Shown here one piece after another: positions 1 to 31,545 of a DNA stretch of 53,745 nucleotides. Source of the stretch: a virus; IMG/VR virus record IMGVR_UViG_3300010400_000009, positions 1-53,745 of that record; one strand, 5' to 3'. The notes beneath the pieces are model-generated. The model did not search any database and was not told the DNA's origin. It worked only from the letters and a program-made list of their open reading frames with translations. How positions within the stretch are numbered: the first letter of the stretch is position 1; the number at the start of each line of letters is the position of its first letter. The position numbers and the translations under genes are program-made.

Positions 1-123
1 CCGAGGCGGTAGGCTTTGATGTGAAAGCCTTAAACGCAAGCAGTGCTTTAAATGCAAATAATATTACTAATGTTAGTTCTAGTTTAAATATTGTTAGTAG
101 CAACTTAAAAAGCGTATCGTCTA
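1..123. repeat. Terminal direct repeat (copy of 53623-53745)
   Basis: All 123 bases match the window end. The repeat lies within a coding gene with no special sequence, so it reflects a circular (or circularly permuted) molecule cut open by assembly rather than a biological end. Confidence 0.95.
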
Positions 124-7267: not shown

Positions 7268-7952
7268 CTTTTTTAGCTTTTTTCATTAATTCTAAAAATT
7301 GCTTTTGTTCTTTTCTATTTAATTTACTTATATCAATATTATTTTTTTCTGCTGGTTTTTCAGGCTCAACCTCGCCCGCTTTATCCCCGTATTTTCTAGG
7401 ATTTAGCTTAGCTAGACTAAACTTTAGCGTATCAACAATTAATTTGTCGCAATTCACGCTTAGCGGGTTAGAATTTAGTGCAACTTCTATCATGTCATCG
7501 TGTGCATTATCAAGTTTTTTAGCATAAGCCATACGATACATGTCGGCAAACGCAGTATGTTTAATGCACCATTCCAAGATTGTACTTCTATCGGGGAAGT
7601 GGGGATTTTCTGCACAAACCCATTTTAAAGGGCGTTTTCCGCTATCGCCTATTGCCTGACAAATTTCTTGTGCTAATTCTAAATTATATAAGGTAGGGCG
7701 ACCACCTTTGTTTTTTTCTATTGGTTCAGTAAGATTATTCTTATTTTTTTCATAATTTAAAATCTCGTTATTTTGCGAGCTTTTAAGGGTTTCCATTAGA
7801 TTTTTGAGTGATGAAACCTCGTCTTTGTCTAATTTCTCGCCTTTCCCTGCTGAATTAATTAATTTATAGAGTTTTGCTTGAAGTGCTTTAAATTCTTTGT
7901 CGTGCTTTTCATTTAAAGTTTGCAAACCCTCTGCATATTCTTTTCTATTCAT
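7257..7952 (-). CDS. terS: Terminase small subunit (Sf6/HTH type)
   Basis: A 231-residue protein. The N-terminal ~80 residues are charged and coiled-coil-like. From about residue 78 there is a recognisable small-terminase domain: G-G-R-P-T-L-Y, a helix with I-C-Q-A-I-G-D-S-G, then ENPHFPDRSTILEWC and FADMYRMAYAKKLDNAHDDM, the Sf6-type helix-turn-helix pattern that binds the packaging initiation site. The C-terminus is lysine/glutamate-rich. It overlaps the methyltransferase stop by 8 bases upstream and the large subunit by 11 bases downstream. Confidence 0.82.
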   Translation of the reverse strand: MNRKEYAEGLQTLNEKHDKEFKALQAKLYKLINSAGKGEKLDKDEVSSLKNLMETLKSSQNNEILNYEKNKNNLTEPIEKNKGGRPTLYNLELAQEICQAIGDSGKRPLKWVCAENPHFPDRSTILEWCIKHTAFADMYRMAYAKKLDNAHDDMIEVALNSNPLSVNCDKLIVDTLKFSLAKLNPRKYGDKAGEVEPEKPAEKNNIDISKLNRKEQKQFLELMKKAKKDEN

Positions 7953-9225
7953 TAAGTAGCTCCGCTTTCTGCCCTGTTAAATTTTCATATCTTTGTAAAA
8001 TTACATCGCAATATTTCGGGTCTAATTCCATTATATAAGCTTTACGCTCTGTTTTTTGACAAGCTATTAGGGTTGTACCGCTTCCGCCGAATAAATCTAA
8101 TACAATATGATTTTTATTAGAGCAGTCTAAAATTGTGTCTGCAACTAATTCAAGCGGCTTAACAGTAGGGTGCATTCCTGCTTCTTCGGCTCTATCCTTA
8201 TTTTTAAAGCTATTTACAATAGGATAATCCCATACATTAGAGCGCGTACGCCCGAATTGCCCTAATTCAAAGTTGTTTATATGTTTTTCATTACCATTTT
8301 TATAAACAAATATAAGCTCATGCTTACTTCTGTAAAAACTGCCCATACCAAAATTGTCTTTATTCCATATGCACAAATTTTTAAGTTCAGTAAATACTCC
8401 ATTGGCTGCATTAATAACATTATGCATATGCCTCCAATCCATACATATATAATGTATACTGCCGTTTGTACTATGAATAATTAGATTATTAAAAGTATCT
8501 TGTAAAAATTGTGTAAATTCCTTATCAGTCATTTCCCCGCTTGCCATTTTAAACTCGCCCATTTCTTTTATGCTATCAAAACCTTTTAAGCCAGTTCCTA
8601 TATTTGCAATCTTTATATTATAAGGCGGGTCGGTAAATACCATATTAGCCTTACTGCCGTTCATCAATTTATCAACATCAGATAGCAAAATAGAGTTACC
8701 GCACATTAATCTATGATTACCTAGCTTGTATATATCGCCGTATTTAGTTTTAGGCTCAATTGGCGGTTCGGGCGTTTCTTCTTCCTCTTCCATGTTTTCA
8801 GGCATAACTTCATCAGGATTTAGCAACTGCTCAAGCTCTCCTTCATCAAAACCGATTAAACTTAAATCAAAATTTAACTCCTGCAACTGCTCAAGCTCAA
8901 CTTTTAGCAGTTCATTATCCCATGTAGAATTTAAAGCAAGTTTATTGTCGGCTATGATATATGCCTTCTTTTGTGCCTCACTTAAATGCGATAATTCAAT
9001 ACAAGGCACTTTTTTAAGTTTTAACATTTTTGCAGCAGATAGCCTACCATGCCCCGCAATTATGCCATTTTCGCCGTCAATTAATATAGGATTGGTAAAT
9101 CCGAACTCTTTTATTGAGGCGGCTACTTGTGATATTTGCTCATCGCTATGTAAACGTGAATTATTAATATAGCCGATTAAATCAGATACATTTTTATAAA
9201 TTATTTGCTGATTTTCATTTTTCAT
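7945..9225 (-). CDS. ParB/Srx-fold domain fused to a DNA adenine (N6) methyltransferase
   Basis: A 426-residue two-domain protein. Residues 1-130 form a ParB-like N-terminal domain with the G-H-G-R motif at 58-61. A Glu/Pro-rich linker follows at about 140-160. Residues 165-420 are a beta-class methyltransferase: DPPY at 199-202 comes before the S-adenosylmethionine motif D-L-F-G-G-S-G-T-T near 385, and DPPY favours N6-adenine as target. There is no ParB helix-turn-helix, so it cannot be a true parS-binding ParB. Such fusions are common beside terminase genes; a role in protecting or marking DNA for packaging is inferred. Confidence 0.88.
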   Translation of the reverse strand: MKNENQQIIYKNVSDLIGYINNSRLHSDEQISQVAASIKEFGFTNPILIDGENGIIAGHGRLSAAKMLKLKKVPCIELSHLSEAQKKAYIIADNKLALNSTWDNELLKVELEQLQELNFDLSLIGFDEGELEQLLNPDEVMPENMEEEEETPEPPIEPKTKYGDIYKLGNHRLMCGNSILLSDVDKLMNGSKANMVFTDPPYNIKIANIGTGLKGFDSIKEMGEFKMASGEMTDKEFTQFLQDTFNNLIIHSTNGSIHYICMDWRHMHNVINAANGVFTELKNLCIWNKDNFGMGSFYRSKHELIFVYKNGNEKHINNFELGQFGRTRSNVWDYPIVNSFKNKDRAEEAGMHPTVKPLELVADTILDCSNKNHIVLDLFGGSGTTLIACQKTERKAYIMELDPKYCDVILQRYENLTGQKAELLNE

Positions 9226-9785: not shown

Positions 9786-9930
9786 TTTGTTTGTATCCTC
9801 TTTTTTTTATTGATGAATTAAGCAAATATTATTCGCTCAATTTAATTTTAATAAATCATTTTAATACAGCTTAAAACTATTTTATTTTGTGTGATATTTT
9901 AGATACATGCAAAATAATTTCATAAAAGAC

Positions 9931-9959
9931 TTGTATAATATTATATACTAGTATATAAT
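9931..9959 (+). promoter_or_regulatory. Sigma-70-like promoter with a 20-bp palindromic operator (copy 1)
   Basis: TTGTAT (9931-9936), a 17-base spacer and TATAAT (9954-9959). The spacer and -10 box are covered by the perfect palindrome ATTATATACTAGTATATAAT (9940-9959), centred on CTAG. The same 20 bases lie in the same place in a second promoter at 10679-10707. The geometry implies a repressor that occludes the -10 box. Confidence 0.75.
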
Positions 9960-9998
9960 TATATTAATCAAACCACAAAATATTAAAAGGATTAAAAA

Positions 9999-10286
9999 AT
10001 GAATAAATTATTAAATGTAACTAGCTCTGATGTTGGTACAGGCTGGGATAAAGAAGCTAAATTAGTATGTGAAAGAATGTTTAAGATATTTAATAATCTT
10101 TCAGAATTGGATAAAAGAAAAGCAGATAAAGAGATTGATGATATAGATTTAAGAAATGATTTACATAACGAAGGTAAATCAATTTTATCAGAAATTGAAA
10201 TTCAAGCAATAAATGAAATTGAAAAAGAATTAGGATATGACAACATGAATGGATTGAACCATACTTCATTTGTATTCGAAATTTAA
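9999..10286 (+). CDS. Small acidic early protein (95 aa), unknown
   Basis: Starts 40 bases after the palindromic promoter, with AAAAGGA about 8 bases before the ATG. The 95-residue product is mostly helical and highly charged (Glu/Asp/Lys), with a predicted long helix around residues 25-80. No motif recognised. A strong rho-independent terminator follows directly, so this is a single-gene transcript under its own operator, the layout expected for an early or lysogeny-phase regulator. Confidence 0.65.
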   Translation: MNKLLNVTSSDVGTGWDKEAKLVCERMFKIFNNLSELDKRKADKEIDDIDLRNDLHNEGKSILSEIEIQAINEIEKELGYDNMNGLNHTSFVFEI

Positions 10287-10300
10287 AATAAATAATAAAT

Positions 10301-10327
10301 AAGTGGTCGAATTCGACCACTTTAATT
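10301..10327 (+). terminator. Rho-independent terminator
   Basis: Perfect inverted repeat AAGTGGTCGAATTCGACCACTT (22 bases, written here as two 11-base arms around AATT) at 10301-10322, followed by T-rich sequence. It closes the 9999-10286 transcript. Confidence 0.8.
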
Positions 10328-10421
10328 AATTATATAGGCAGAGTAATAAAAGAAACTCATAAATTTGCTAATTTAGAACAAGCAAGAGATTTTTGTATAC
10401 AAAATTATAAAGGATAAAAAT

Positions 10422-10649
10422 ATGTCAAATTCTCAAAGTCCGCAAAGCAAGGCAACACGCAAAAATACTGCTGCTGAATGGAATAAGAAAAATCGAAAAA
10501 ATGGAAATGTTAAGCAATTTAACGTTACATTAATAGACACATTAGCAATTGAAGCAGTTGCAGAACTACCAAATAAAGCCCAATTCTTAACAAACGTATT
10601 AAGTTTGTATAAAAATGGTTTAATTAGCAATGAAGGCAAAATAATTTAA
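10422..10649 (+). CDS. Putative ribbon-helix-helix DNA-binding protein (75 aa)
   Basis: The basic N-terminus (residues 1-28, Ser/Lys/Asn-rich) is followed by KQFNVTLID, a beta-strand-like segment near residues 31-39, then two short helices (TLAIEAVAEL and NKAQFLTNVLSLYKNG). This strand-helix-helix order resembles Arc/MetJ-type repressors. AAAGGA lies 8 bases before the ATG. It sits between two promoters that share a 20-bp palindromic operator, so it is a candidate for the repressor of those sites. The fold is inferred by eye. Confidence 0.6.
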   Translation: MSNSQSPQSKATRKNTAAEWNKKNRKNGNVKQFNVTLIDTLAIEAVAELPNKAQFLTNVLSLYKNGLISNEGKII

Positions 10650-10678
10650 ATATTCTTGCACTTTGTATAAAAAAGTGC

Positions 10679-10711
10679 TTGACTATAATTATATACTAGT
10701 ATATAATTATA
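10679..10711 (+). promoter_or_regulatory. Strong promoter with an extended palindromic operator (copy 2)
   Basis: TTGACT (10679-10684), exactly 17 bases, then TATAAT (10702-10707). A perfect 28-bp palindrome spans 10684-10711; its central 20 bases equal those of the 9940-9959 operator. The -10 box lies in the right arm, so a dimeric repressor bound here would block RNA polymerase. Confidence 0.82.
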
Positions 10712-11479: not shown

Positions 11480-12175
11480 TTAAAGCGATTTTTGAGGCGT
11501 TTGCACGCTGAAATTGATTATATTTACTCTACCACCTTTCTTAATTGGTTCATATATAATTTTTAAATCTGTTACGTCGTTGATTTCTGCTATAGCTGGC
11601 TTTAATAGCATATTATTAAAATGTTTAAATTCTGCATAGCTTTTTTTATCTTTTGCTAGAAAATCATAAATAAATTTAAATGATAAATTGAAATTTTTAA
11701 ATTTAAATGTTTTAGATTTTATTAGCTCATACATTGGTAGGCTGTGAATTCCTTGCAACACATTTAATTTATTTAGGTCTAGCTCCGTATATCCATGCTC
11801 AATATTTTTTTTGCCCGCTGAGTTTTTATAATTAATATTTAAAAAATTAATTAGCTGGCTTGACATCTCAATTTGATAGTTGTTTCTAGTAGCTTTAACT
11901 GCTGAAATATAACAACTAAATTCATAATCCTCGTTTAGATTATTTTCTAATGAGAACATCTCATTTTTCATTAAGCCTAAAAATATTTTTTTTATTTGTG
12001 CATGTGAAAAATTAGAAGGGATAAAGTCGCCTAGCTCTTGCCTGCTTAAATTTATAATATTAGAAGTGAATTTTATTTTTGAAAATTCAAAGATTAGCTG
12101 ATTGAATAGTTTGCGTTGCAGGTTAGTTAGATTATTATTTGCAATTATTGCAAAATTAGGCTTATAGATTATCAT
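11480..12175 (-). CDS. rep: Plasmid-type replication initiator, Rep_3 (iteron-binding) family
   Basis: 231 residues with the two winged-helix architecture of Rep_3/RepB initiators. Visible family signatures are LTNLQRKLFNQLI near residue 16, the inter-domain stretch around HSLPMYELIKSKTF near residue 140, and the C-terminal motif LKPAIAEINDVTDLKIIYEP near 190-210 followed by G-G-R-V-N-I-I-N-F. These proteins bind direct-repeat iterons and open the origin; four 22-bp iterons lie 1 kb upstream at 13173-13260. It is the second gene of a two-gene unit behind the BRO antirepressor, 3 bases apart. It implies replication as a plasmid. Confidence 0.85.
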   Translation of the reverse strand: MIIYKPNFAIIANNNLTNLQRKLFNQLIFEFSKIKFTSNIINLSRQELGDFIPSNFSHAQIKKIFLGLMKNEMFSLENNLNEDYEFSCYISAVKATRNNYQIEMSSQLINFLNINYKNSAGKKNIEHGYTELDLNKLNVLQGIHSLPMYELIKSKTFKFKNFNLSFKFIYDFLAKDKKSYAEFKHFNNMLLKPAIAEINDVTDLKIIYEPIKKGGRVNIINFSVQTPQKSL

Positions 12176-12178
12176 AAA

Positions 12179-12850
12179 TTAATTATTTTTATATTTTGTC
12201 TGAAAATGATTTATTATATTTAATGCCGTTTTTAAATCATCTTTTAAAAGCTGGCTATATTTAACAATACCAAAATAATTATATAATCTATTATAGATTT
12301 TTTTTATAAAAAATGGTAATTCATCATCTGAATTTGCTAACTGGTATGCACGATTTTTAATACCATTTTGTAAAATTAGTTGCTCTTGAGGATTAATTGT
12401 ATCTGCTGTTAAATCCTCTATTTGATTTTCTAATTCATATATTTCATTTTCTAATTGAATTATTATATCGTTACGCCAGTCTATATGATATAGTAGTCTA
12501 TTTCTCTCAGTATCATACATACCAGTTTTTCTTATGGCTGGTAGAACTTCATTGAATACCCAATTTTGAAAATCTATAGCTTCTTTTTTATCAGAACGCA
12601 TAACTAAATAATATAATTGTGGTTCTGTTATAAATGTTGTTTCTTGTGTTCTACCCAGATTGTCAATTATGGGGTAGGTTTTACCGACCCCATCTTTAAA
12701 TCTTAATTTTAATCTAGTACTAATATCATTAATATTTTTAATATTTAAGAAATTGCATATATCTTTTAGACAAAATAATGGGCTGTCAAATGTGCCCAAT
12801 GTACGTAAATTTTTATTTTTAAAAGAAAAAACTTGAAGTTCGTTTATCAT
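12179..12850 (-). CDS. BRO-N domain antirepressor
   Basis: Residues 1-115 match the BRO-N/Ant domain: F-S-F-K-N-K-N-L-R-T, F-C-L-K-D-I-C-N-F-L, a strand with F-I-T-E-P-Q-L-Y-Y-L-V-M-R-S, and F-Q-N-W-V-F-N-E-V-L-P-A-I-R-K-T-G. The C-terminal ~100 residues are a coiled coil (ENEIYELENQIEDL) plus a basic helical tail. Phage antirepressors inactivate the lysogeny repressor. Being cotranscribed with rep, it could link replication control to the lysis-lysogeny switch; that link is inferred. Confidence 0.85.
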   Translation of the reverse strand: MINELQVFSFKNKNLRTLGTFDSPLFCLKDICNFLNIKNINDISTRLKLRFKDGVGKTYPIIDNLGRTQETTFITEPQLYYLVMRSDKKEAIDFQNWVFNEVLPAIRKTGMYDTERNRLLYHIDWRNDIIIQLENEIYELENQIEDLTADTINPQEQLILQNGIKNRAYQLANSDDELPFFIKKIYNRLYNYFGIVKYSQLLKDDLKTALNIINHFQTKYKNN

Positions 12851-13054
12851 ATTTTATCGCTTGTTTATAGGGTGGGCTTGGAGCGGTAGTTCAGGTAAAG
12901 CGTACCCTCACTCCTGCCCATTGAAAAGTTTTATTGCGAACTACTGCAATAAGTAAATTGTATATTTTTTTAATAAGCAAAGCAAGCCAATTTTTAATAA
13001 AAAAAGTTAGCTTAATTTTTTAAAAAAATACGTGCGTCTCGCGCGAAAATGTTT

Positions 13055-13076
13055 AAATAATCACAAGTGATTATTT
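13055..13076. other. Inverted repeat in the origin region
   Basis: AAATAATCAC, two bases, then GTGATTATTT: perfect 10-bp arms. It could be an operator or a terminator for leftward or rightward transcripts; the sequence alone does not decide. Confidence 0.6.
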
Positions 13077-13172
13077 TAGGTTTATAAATTATATTTCTTT
13101 TTTTTATATATTTCTCTTATTTTATCTTATTTGTTGAGGCGACGAGCCTTTTATTCATGCGTCATTTGGCGG

Positions 13173-13260
13173 TTTCAGGTAAAAGAAAAGTGGGTTTCAG
13201 GTAAAAGAAAAGTGGGTTTCAGGTAAAAGAAAAGTGGGTTTCAGGTAAAAGAAAAGTGGG
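13173..13260 (+). repeat. Four 22-bp iterons of a plasmid origin
   Basis: Four perfect, directly abutting copies (13173-13194, 13195-13216, 13217-13238, 13239-13260). Each begins TTTCAGGTAAAAG and ends AAAAGTGGG, one repeat being exactly two helical turns, which is the usual iteron period for Rep_3 initiators. The rep gene lies nearby at 11480-12175. Confidence 0.9.
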
Positions 13261-13345
13261 TTTATTTAAACTAATACATATTTATTTTATGCAATTAATT
13301 ATGTATCATCTACATATTTATTTATACAAAATAAATCATAATATA

Positions 13346-13374
13346 TTGCATAATTATTTATTTTTATATATAAT
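13346..13374 (+). promoter_or_regulatory. Predicted promoter of the early replication operon
   Basis: TTGCAT (13346-13351), 17 bases, TATAAT (13369-13374), about 60 bases before the first plus-strand gene at 13436 and just to the right of the iterons. Confidence 0.6.
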
Positions 13375-13435
13375 GACTTCATAATAACAATAAGAGCATA
13401 GACAATTATTTTATAATTTTTAAAAGGAATGCATT

Positions 13436-13612
13436 ATGTCTGAAAAAAACGAAAATGAGGCTATTTTAAATAAGCTAGAAACCTTAGAAGACAAATTAAA
13501 CAATTTACATTCTACAATTCAAGAGGCTTTAGGTGTAAATATTGTTAAGGTATTAGAGAGCCACCAACGTTCAATAAATATTTTAAGTAAAAATAAGGAA
13601 GATAAAAAATGA
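13436..13612 (+). CDS. Small coiled-coil protein (58 aa)
   Basis: A 58-residue, highly charged helical protein with Leu/Ile heptads (ILNKLETLEDKLNNLHSTI) that should form a coiled coil. TAAAAGGA lies about 8 bases before the ATG. Its TGA overlaps the ATG of the next gene (ATGA), so it is coupled to the O-like replication protein. First gene of the early operon to the right of the iterons. Function not recognised. Confidence 0.65.
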   Translation: MSEKNENEAILNKLETLEDKLNNLHSTIQEALGVNIVKVLESHQRSINILSKNKEDKK

Positions 13613-14391
13613 GTTTAATAGACGCTGCAAACAAAAGAAGGAATGATATTTTAAAAAATTTAATTAAGGAGCAAGTGCAACATTCTTTAGTACATATAAA
13701 TTTTATGAAGTTAGCCAAAAAATACAATGTTAATCGTAATGCCATAGCTAATGATATTAATTTTTTTTTAAAAAATAATATGCTTGAATGGTTTTTACCA
13801 AACGCACAGGTTTATAAGCTTGTTGGTGATAAAAAAACTATAAATAATGAATATCTACCACCTGCAGAAATTAAGCCCAAAATTGAAGCAGAGGCAGAGC
13901 CAAAAAAAATAAATGTTGCTAATAAAAAACAATCTGATAAAGATTTAGACTTTTCTTTAATAAATGTTGATTTTTTTAACGAATTAGAAATAAAATCTAT
14001 TCATGATTTTGTTGCACATAGGCAACAAATAAAAGAGCCATTTACAAAAATAGGATTTTCGGCATTTATTAATAAAGCAAAAAAATTTAAAGAAAAAAAA
14101 TATTGTTTAATACAATGTGTTGAAGACGCTATTGTTGGTTCATGGAAAAGTATTTATCCGCCAAAAAACTATAATAACAATAATGTAAATATTAGGCAGA
14201 TGACTTACAAAGAAATTGACGAGCATAATAGAATAGACGCACTAAGAAGAGATAGAGAAGCCATGAATATCGCAAATAATGCGGTAGAAAGTATTAGTGA
14301 TAAATGGGCGAATAAATATAAAAATAATATTAATGGAGAAAATGAAAATGACAATGGAAATTTACTTACAAGCACTTACAAAAATAGTTAA
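13609..14391 (+). CDS. Replication initiation-type protein (O-like, helix-turn-helix)
   Basis: 260 residues. The N-terminal ~65 look like a winged helix (MKLAKKYNVNRNAIANDINFFLKN), followed by a Lys/Glu-rich linker at about 75-115. A C-terminal helical domain (FNELEIKSIHDFVAHRQQ, then CVEDAIVGSWKSIYPP near 160-180) resembles the C-terminal part of phage replisome organisers that contact helicase or its loader. The downstream gene, overlapping by 44 bases, is P-like. It is not obvious how this O/P-like pair divides work with the Rep_3 initiator. Confidence 0.6.
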   Translation: MSLIDAANKRRNDILKNLIKEQVQHSLVHINFMKLAKKYNVNRNAIANDINFFLKNNMLEWFLPNAQVYKLVGDKKTINNEYLPPAEIKPKIEAEAEPKKINVANKKQSDKDLDFSLINVDFFNELEIKSIHDFVAHRQQIKEPFTKIGFSAFINKAKKFKEKKYCLIQCVEDAIVGSWKSIYPPKNYNNNNVNIRQMTYKEIDEHNRIDALRRDREAMNIANNAVESISDKWANKYKNNINGENENDNGNLLTSTYKNS

Positions 14392-15028
14392 TGAATGTTT
14401 TTTTTTGTATCCAAAACAACAAATTTTTAACGCTTGGAATATAGAAAGTGCTCCTGATTTTTTTGAAAATAAAGCAGATTTATTATTAAAAAAAATAATT
14501 GAATTAAAAATACCAGCAAAATATTTAAAAGATATTACGCATAAATTACAAGAAAATTATGTAAAATATCCGCCTTCATTACTACAACTAATAGATTTAA
14601 TGAAGCCAGTGCATAATTACGAACGTTTATTTAGAACCACCCAGCAAAACGCCATAATTATACAACAATATTTAGACGGCTTAAATAGTCATAGTTTAGA
14701 TAAACTTTGTAAATTTTCTTATAATATTTATGAGAAAATGAAAAGCTTAAAAGGTATAAACATTATATCTAAACAATGGTGTAATGTAAACTGCGGGCAG
14801 ATGGATATAGAATTCAAAAATTGTTCTGATGAGTTTATTGAAGTTTTTAATTTAGTAGATTTTATACAAGAATGCGAACTTTTGCCTATTCCTGCACCAA
14901 TAATCAAAATTGATATTATTAAATCTAAGGCAGAATTAGAGGAAGAGGATAGGATAAATAAGGAAAACATAAAAATATTTAAAGAAGTAATGCAAAGCTT
15001 GTGCGAAAAATTTACTGTAAATACTTGA
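14348..15028 (+). CDS. Putative helicase loader (P-like)
   Basis: Start at 14348 is preferred because GGAG lies 9 bases upstream, inside the end of the O-like gene; earlier in-frame ATGs at 14333 and 14342 lack a placed site. The 226-residue product begins with a helical region typical of lambda-P-like loaders: FLYPKQQIFNAWN, a helical stretch, then E-N-Y-V-K-Y-P-P-S-L-L-Q-L-I-D-L-M-K-P near residue 80. The name rests on that pattern and on position after the O-like gene. The TGA stop is part of the TTGACA box of the RNA-array promoter. Confidence 0.55.
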   Translation: MTMEIYLQALTKIVNECFFLYPKQQIFNAWNIESAPDFFENKADLLLKKIIELKIPAKYLKDITHKLQENYVKYPPSLLQLIDLMKPVHNYERLFRTTQQNAIIIQQYLDGLNSHSLDKLCKFSYNIYEKMKSLKGINIISKQWCNVNCGQMDIEFKNCSDEFIEVFNLVDFIQECELLPIPAPIIKIDIIKSKAELEEEDRINKENIKIFKEVMQSLCEKFTVNT

Positions 15029-15065: not shown

Positions 15066-15125
15066 GTGCTGAAGCTTGCAGTTACTTATCTTGAAAATAA
15101 AACCAACTGTAAGCGATTGTTGCCG
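15066..15125 (+). ncRNA. Hairpin RNA unit 1 of a tandem array (possible minimal Y RNA)
   Basis: GTGCTGA leads into a 10-bp stem (GCTTGCAGTT at 15074-15083 with AACTGTAAGC at 15105-15114, one G-U pair). The loop begins ACTTATC, and the GTTACTTA motif straddles the stem-loop edge at 15081-15088. The 3' flank is TTGTTGCCG. Units 2-4 keep these motifs while the stem sequences differ, which argues for a conserved RNA structure. Confidence 0.55.
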
Positions 15126-15138
15126 TTATGTGATTATG

Positions 15139-15194
15139 CGTGTTGAGTTATACAGTTACTTAATGCTATCTAGTCTGTATACATTTGTTACCGC
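15139..15194 (+). ncRNA. Hairpin RNA unit 2 of the tandem array
   Basis: GCGTGTTGA, then a 7-bp stem TATACAG (15149-15155) with CTGTATA (15175-15181), GTTACTTA at 15155-15162, and TTGTTACCGC after the stem. Same order as unit 1 with a different stem sequence. The GCG and CGC at the ends can also pair. Confidence 0.55.
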
Positions 15195-15210
15195 ATAAAT
15201 GATGATGTTT

Positions 15211-15271
15211 GCGTGCTGAAAAAAATAGTTACTTAATATGGTTTTAAAACACTATTTTTGCTTATTGCCGC
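15211..15271 (+). ncRNA. Hairpin RNA unit 3 of the tandem array
   Basis: GCGTGCTGA, then a 9-bp stem AAAAATAGT (15221-15229) with ACTATTTTT (15251-15259), GTTACTTA at 15228-15235, and TATTGCCGC after the stem. TGCG before and CGCA after can form a lower stem with an internal bulge, as in Ro-binding Y RNA helices. Confidence 0.55.
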
Positions 15272-15280
15272 AATTAAAAT

Positions 15281-15404
15281 GAGTGGTGCAGTAAAAAGTT
15301 ACTTATACAATTGGACTGTTTACTCGGAGGTTCAATCCCTCTGCCATATTTTAAAATATGGTTCTTGGTTAGAGAGTTGTTACTTTTTACGCTTGTTCCC
15401 TCAA
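15281..15404 (+). ncRNA. Y RNA-like RNA with a permuted tRNA-like module (YrlA-type)
   Basis: A terminal stem GTAAAAAGT (15291-15299) with ACTTTTTAC (15382-15390) closes a large loop. Inside, in order, are a T-arm (CGGAGG, loop TTCAATC, CCTCTG; 15325-15343), an acceptor-like perfect hairpin (15344-15361) and a D-arm with a GGTTA loop (stem 15362-15366 with 15372-15376). The canonical TTC and GG loop residues would allow tRNA-like D/T-loop contact. Bacterial Y RNAs have just such a tRNA-mimicking module beside a Ro-binding stem and are encoded next to Ro60 genes; here the Ro60 gene starts 300 bases downstream. Confidence 0.75.
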
Positions 15405-15563: not shown

Positions 15564-15643
15564 GCTAACTTAGCTTAACAGTAAAGCAACTTTTGGCTTC
15601 GGCTTTGAGAAGTATATAGGTGCAATTCCTTTAGTTAGCTCCA
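15564..15643 (+). tRNA. tRNA-like gene with an enlarged, UUCG-containing anticodon loop
   Basis: Acceptor GCTAACT/AGTTAGC (7 bp), D-stem GCTT/AAGC, discriminator T and an encoded CCA all support a tRNA. The anticodon stem ACTTTT/AGAAGT encloses 13 bases instead of 7, GGCTTCGGCTTTG, which contains a GGC-UUCG-GCU mini-hairpin and no clear anticodon. The T-loop is TGCAATT and the D-loop AACAGTA, deviating in the same way as the Met-like RNA. It may be a tRNA mimic, a decayed tRNA or a substrate for the adjacent Ro60. Confidence 0.5.
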
Positions 15644-31529: not shown

Positions 31530-31545
31530 TGTTTCACGTGAAACA
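31530..31545. promoter_or_regulatory. parS: parS centromere-like site 4
   Basis: Perfect TGTTTCACGTGAAACA, ending 13 bases before the ATG at 31559, just upstream of its AAAGGA ribosome site. ParB bound here could also affect this gene. Confidence 0.92.

Follow-up and report, generated by a model that had tools for sequence, protein, structure and literature searches.

The combination of a Rep_3 initiator and tandem iterons is characteristic of low-copy plasmid origins. Known phage-plasmids generally carry their own partition genes as well; a partition system is common in such elements but not obligatory. In phage P1, an antirepressor-type gene and an initiator gene share the kilA-repL operon, in which the repL ribosome site is supplied by the end of kilA (PMC9948254). 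The integrase-less parABS mycobacteriophages RedRock and Miko have an extrachromosomal prophage, and some such phages also encode RepA (PMC7157519). Outside the phages, SGI1 carries sites that mimic the parS of IncC plasmids, and IncC ParAB confers stability on an SGI1 replicon that bears parS (PMC10954446).

The window analysed here is the whole 53,745-nucleotide stretch of the virus record IMGVR_UViG_3300010400_000009. Positions 1-123 (+) are repeated exactly at 53623-53745; the repeat is an assembly overlap, giving a genome of 53,622 bp that is closed or circularly permuted, and an uninterrupted 1108-aa ORF crosses the join of the ends. The record is a whole tailed-phage genome with TerL and TerS for packaging, a Mu-type portal, MuF and capsid E for the head, a tape measure and a GpJ-like tip for the tail, and an M15 endolysin for lysis, so that the full packaging, head, tail and lysis set of the original prediction was found in a complete closed genome. 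Neither a CI-type repressor nor an addiction module was recognised in it. Scans with Rep, TerL and portal found no relatives in viral contigs (IMG/VR), and Rep and GpJ queries found none in GTDB genomes, where such scans reach close relatives only; by the queries tried there was accordingly no relative in which to compare conservation of the rep-iteron-parS set. Roseobacter phage CRP-901 was rejected as a close relative (TerL 31%), and similarity of the tRNAs or of the BRO protein was uninformative as to the host. Near the capsid region, between divergent genes at 52409-52468, there is a 31-bp exact tandem repeat, TTTGTTTCATTTTTGCCATTTTTGAAACAAC, whose unit is an inverted repeat (GTTTCA...TGAAAC); it is a candidate late operator. 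The features on which the following argument draws are collected in Table 1.

Table 1. Replication and partition features of the phage genome
Feature	Positions	Strand	Basis or detail
ParB_N-like domain fused to N6/N4 DNA methylase	7945..9225	-	no HTH_ParB
Rep_3 replication initiator, 231 aa	11480..12175	-	both Pfam domains (Rep3_N, Rep3_C) above cut-off
BRO (Bro-N + ORF6C) antirepressor gene	12179..12850	-	Pfam, PHROG
Half-iteron TTCAGGTAAA, 10 bp, candidate autoregulation site	12890..12899	+	in BRO-rep leader
Four exact 22-bp iterons GGTTTCAGGTAAAAGAAAAGTG	13171..13258	+	starts 13171, 13193, 13215, 13237
A+T-rich segment (83-85%), candidate duplex-unwinding region	13251..13450		adjoins iterons
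Lambda-O-like replication initiator gene	13609..14391	+	phrog_678 2e-12, residues 80-224
243-aa ORF after O-like gene, putative helicase-loader position	14297..15028	+	position
parS	15666..15681		just upstream of TROVE/Ro60 gene
parS	20635..20650		within 24-bp perfect palindrome between convergent genes
parS	22470..22485		14 bp upstream of ORF 22500
parS	31530..31545		upstream of likely true start (about 31559) of ORF listed from 31529

The Rep_3 initiator claimed in the original prediction carries both winged-helix domains that define the family (PF01051/PF21205) at the Pfam cut-off, Rep3_N scoring 24.4 bits (cut-off 22.4; 26.5 bits in a six-frame search) and Rep3_C 48.1 bits (cut-off 21.1). 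Among characterised initiators the protein has distant relatives only. Its NCBIfam matches, RepM_Acin (2e-10) and RepE (5e-4), are both well below the curated cut-offs, and its nearest sequence relatives are plasmid entries named 'replication initiation protein', at a weak E of about 1e-5. Among 50,697 phage records only three matched up to E = 5, all weakly (E 0.01-0.2): the P1-like plasmid prophage D6 (E 0.02), whose gene bears an annotation of similarity to P1 repA and pfam01051, a phage of C. difficile, and a Lactococcus phage with an annotated RepB-type plasmid initiator. A phmmer search of the PDB with Rep returned nothing meaningful, and a single-sequence AlphaFold model was poor (pLDDT 45) and unfit as a structure-search query.

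Upstream of rep, with only 3 bp between them at the junction, is the BRO gene, whose product matches Bro-N (5e-19) and ORF6C (9e-6) in Pfam and an anti-repressor family in PHROG (2e-38). BRO and rep likely belong to the same operon; of the cotranscription originally claimed, what stands is this operon-like layout, a prediction from sequence. The further proposal that copy control is linked with induction is speculation, since a lytic replicon of the P1 kilA-repL type would account for an operon of BRO and initiator just as well. Accordingly, BRO-Rep_3 and the iterons might together form a lytic or early replicon, the phage being lytic or only transiently carried. Such a role would fit the position of a gene with an antirepressor domain right before an initiator gene within one operon, the kilA-repL arrangement (PMC9948254); it would also fit the lack of a recognised repressor and the replication-rich appearance of other phages with orphan parS sites. 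We regard this reading as unlikely, given that an O-like initiator is already present for lytic growth and that Rep_3 with tandem iterons is typical of low-copy plasmid origins. The region adjoining rep (9930-10710) holds a pair of perfect, nearly identical palindromes (ATTATATACTAGTATATAAT at 9940 and one of 28 bp at 10684) that overlap promoter-like TTG...TATAAT sequences, and two further palindromes (10301 and 10391) precede a 75-aa ORF at 10422 that resembles a ribbon-helix-helix regulator. It is possible that this is an immunity or copy-control region.

The four exact 22-bp iterons that had been reported lie roughly 1 kb upstream of rep, on the far side of the BRO gene. Tandem Repeats Finder gives 4.2 copies with 100% match at 13171-13263, the fourth copy being followed by a 5-nt start of a fifth. 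The unit has no match elsewhere in the genome within 6 mismatches, an exact search for the iteron gave a single match, in unrelated coding DNA, and a chance repeat was rejected as an explanation. One further copy of the complex half of the iteron is found in the BRO-rep leader; a word as long and as complex occurred in 21 of 3000 Markov leaders and in none of the other 320-bp windows of the genome. The leader of the BRO-rep mRNA at 12866-12915 (-) could also fold into a hairpin of -19 kcal/mol that holds the half-iteron, a weak signal (z -1.6). Near the iterons there is no perfect DnaA box, only boxes with one mismatch (e.g. at 13322), and the promoter scan found no sigma-70-like site there. 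Of the 'complete plasmid replicon' in the original prediction, Rep_3 and the iterons stand, and a complete, working replicon is a prediction.

A lambda-O-like gene, missing from the original prediction, begins 350 bp from the iterons on the side opposite to rep. It is followed by an ORF without a significant family match, whose role as a helicase loader would be deduced from its position. Because the array is flanked by two initiator loci, its use by Rep_3 is something we infer. Lambda O binds iterons, and lambda-type iterons sit inside the O gene. The array could therefore be the origin of the lambda-O-like protein, with Rep_3 an accessory or a relic, and both the short distance to the O-like gene and the location of the most A+T-rich DNA, between that gene and the iterons, are in keeping with this. 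We find such an arrangement quite improbable, as three lines favour assignment of the iterons to Rep_3 and the rep gene is intact. Two plasmids that share a distant Rep, one of 45 kb with phage genes from C. difficile and one of 4.07 kb from E. coli, have repeats with a 22-bp period right before rep; the half-iteron is present in the BRO-rep leader; and the O-like gene, in contrast to lambda, has no iteron-like repeat array in its interior. Judged from these sequence comparisons, the iterons would belong to Rep_3.

The original prediction also held that the phage has no visible integrase or transposase, and the HMM searches agree. Pfam recognised no integrase, serine recombinase, resolvase or transposase among 76 other predicted proteins and the main early genes, and PF00589 and PF00239 were absent from six-frame profile searches of the genome, the controls for which were positive in 14 of 14 and 10 of 14 genomes, respectively. 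Many early genes have no assigned function, so an unrecognised recombinase, or else host XerCD, might still integrate the phage into the chromosome. Such integration is very improbable in light of these searches and of the GTDB scan, which found no chromosomal relatives within its reach of close relatives only. The XerCD/dif route in particular was rejected, the best dif-like match in the genome being no better than shuffled sequence.

The canonical chromosomal parS, TGTTTCACGTGAAACA, occurs four times in exact form in the genome, where about 6e-6 copies would be expected; all four lie in its early half, and the isolated half-site GTTTCAC occurs nowhere else in the genome. The parS sites were part of the original prediction and are confirmed, while a phage-encoded partition system is not: an AAA_31 search found no ParA in the genome, and the ParB DNA-binding domain (HTH_ParB) is likewise absent. 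As both ParA and an HTH-bearing ParB are lacking, the sites are host-type centromeres without a phage-encoded partner, and they suggest that the phage uses the ParABS of its host. The only ParB_N-like domain of the genome is part of a DNA methylase fusion, rejected as a partition ParB for lack of HTH_ParB; nor is the fusion linked to parS, since none of 80 loci (0.81 Mb) encoding its relatives carries the site.

The parS site at 15666 lies beside a tRNA cluster. At 15066-15305, just before the tRNA genes, GTG.TGA......AGTTACTTA occurs four times with spacings of 74, 73 and 70 bp; given this tRNA-sized spacing, they may be tRNA-like units that have become degenerate, or else another repeat array. 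After tRNA-Met and tRNA-Asp there is a third tRNA (15564-15640) with an irregular anticodon arm, which scores 39.9 bits with Rfam and is not called by ARAGORN. The gene for a TROVE/Ro60-like RNA-binding protein (15708-17027) directly follows the tRNA cluster and the parS site.

Viral contigs show a strong excess of canonical parS, mostly unaccompanied by ParA or ParB. The parS motif was found in at least 120 stretches of viral contigs and a 20-bp version in at least 119, while the reversed palindrome, of identical base composition, gave one match in a complete scan. Among the matches listed, 46 virus records of at least 25 kb bear parS, a non-random sample that may include fragments; in these, ParA was found in 1/46, ParB_N in 6/46 (3 over the cut-off), a tyrosine integrase in 5/46, and two to four parS sites in 10/46. 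The three multi-parS records that were checked are all phages: G012 encodes TerL and portal and has three intergenic parS sites, G022 encodes TerL, DNA polymerase and primase and has several orphan parS, and G036 encodes TerL, portal and primase and has four clustered sites. Two high-GC records (G005 and G021) with parS within coding DNA may be host chromosome and were left out as phage examples. G022 and G036 have polymerase or primase and helicase genes with integrase absent, and may be lytic; for that reason the presence of parS does not necessarily imply maintenance as a plasmid.

The sites might therefore serve something other than segregation. They could recruit host ParB/SMC so as to compact the genome, silence genes or position lytic replication, or they could act as a decoy that titrates ParB. 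Orphan parS in phages with lytic-looking replication genes would be expected under such a role, and three of the four sites in the present phage are just upstream of genes. That said, four exact parS sites with a plasmid-type initiator and with neither integrase nor par genes fit outsourced partition, for which the stabilisation of a replicon by orphan parS in SGI1 is a precedent, and we consider a non-segregation role for the sites rather unlikely. It is conceivable, at somewhat less than an even chance, that phages with exact host-type parS but without ParA/ParB form a widespread class, which uses or interferes with host segregation, the present phage, with four parS and a Rep_3/iteron origin, being an extreme case that outsources partition. 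The open-access library that was searched yielded no paper on phages that have host-type parS while lacking ParAB.

Given the above, we slightly favour a temperate phage-plasmid that replicates from a Rep_3/iteron origin, has an O-like lytic module, and outsources partition to host ParABS through four parS sites. Under this scenario, the phage would persist as a circular plasmid in the lysogen, where Rep_3 would bind the four iterons and open the adjoining A+T-rich DNA, and low-copy theta replication would start. Rep may repress its own operon through the half-iteron in the BRO-rep leader, and the lambda-O-like gene probably drives a separate lytic replication. Host ParB would load on the phage parS sites and host ParA would move the phage with the chromosome origins, the model assuming that the host has ParABS. 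Binding of the iterons by Rep, plasmid replication, lysogeny, ParB loading and segregation are thus all predicted steps, and confidence in the model as a whole is moderate because Rep_3 may be an initiator used at induction and parS may recruit SMC or act as a decoy. If the model is true, the need for no more than a few 16-bp host centromeres would account for how small integrase-free phages persist, prophage inheritance would be tied to chromosome segregation, and host ParB/SMC would be a factor exploited by phages. The enrichment of parS against a scrambled-sequence control makes the idea testable at large scale.

The P1/D6-type phage-plasmids, with a RepA of the Rep_3 family, an iteron oriR and a separate lytic replicon, share with the present phage the combination of Rep_3 and iterons in a tailed phage. 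As P1 has two replicons, a second initiator gene is likewise present here, and as in kilA-repL an antirepressor-type gene lies beside an initiator, the BRO gene being upstream of Rep_3 and not of RepL. In contrast to P1 and D6, neither parAB nor an addiction module was recognised here, Rep is only weakly similar (to D6), and the virion genes are unrelated. The 45-kb C. difficile plasmids (e.g. NZ_CP020425) are circular and have a phage gene set and a Rep_3 gene with 22/23-bp repeats just upstream, as here, but they differ in encoding an integrase-family gene and ParM, and a BRO gene next to rep is not listed for them. N15-like linear phage-plasmids (e.g. E. asburiae pJBIWA007_2) similarly have a Bro-N antirepressor gene; their protelomerase and their own SopA/ParB-type partition genes are both absent here. 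RedRock and Miko encode their own ParA/ParB with phage-specific parS, whereas the present phage has host-type parS only. SGI1 is, like this phage, a mobile element with parS sites and no par genes, but it is not a phage, and it hijacks the ParABS of an IncC plasmid rather than that of the host chromosome as proposed here. Rep_3 phage-plasmids (P1 type, D6 and C. difficile) are already known, as are phages that lack an integrase and encode a parABS system (PMC7157519); the present genome departs from them in combining, within a complete phage, a Rep_3/iteron origin with centromeres alone.
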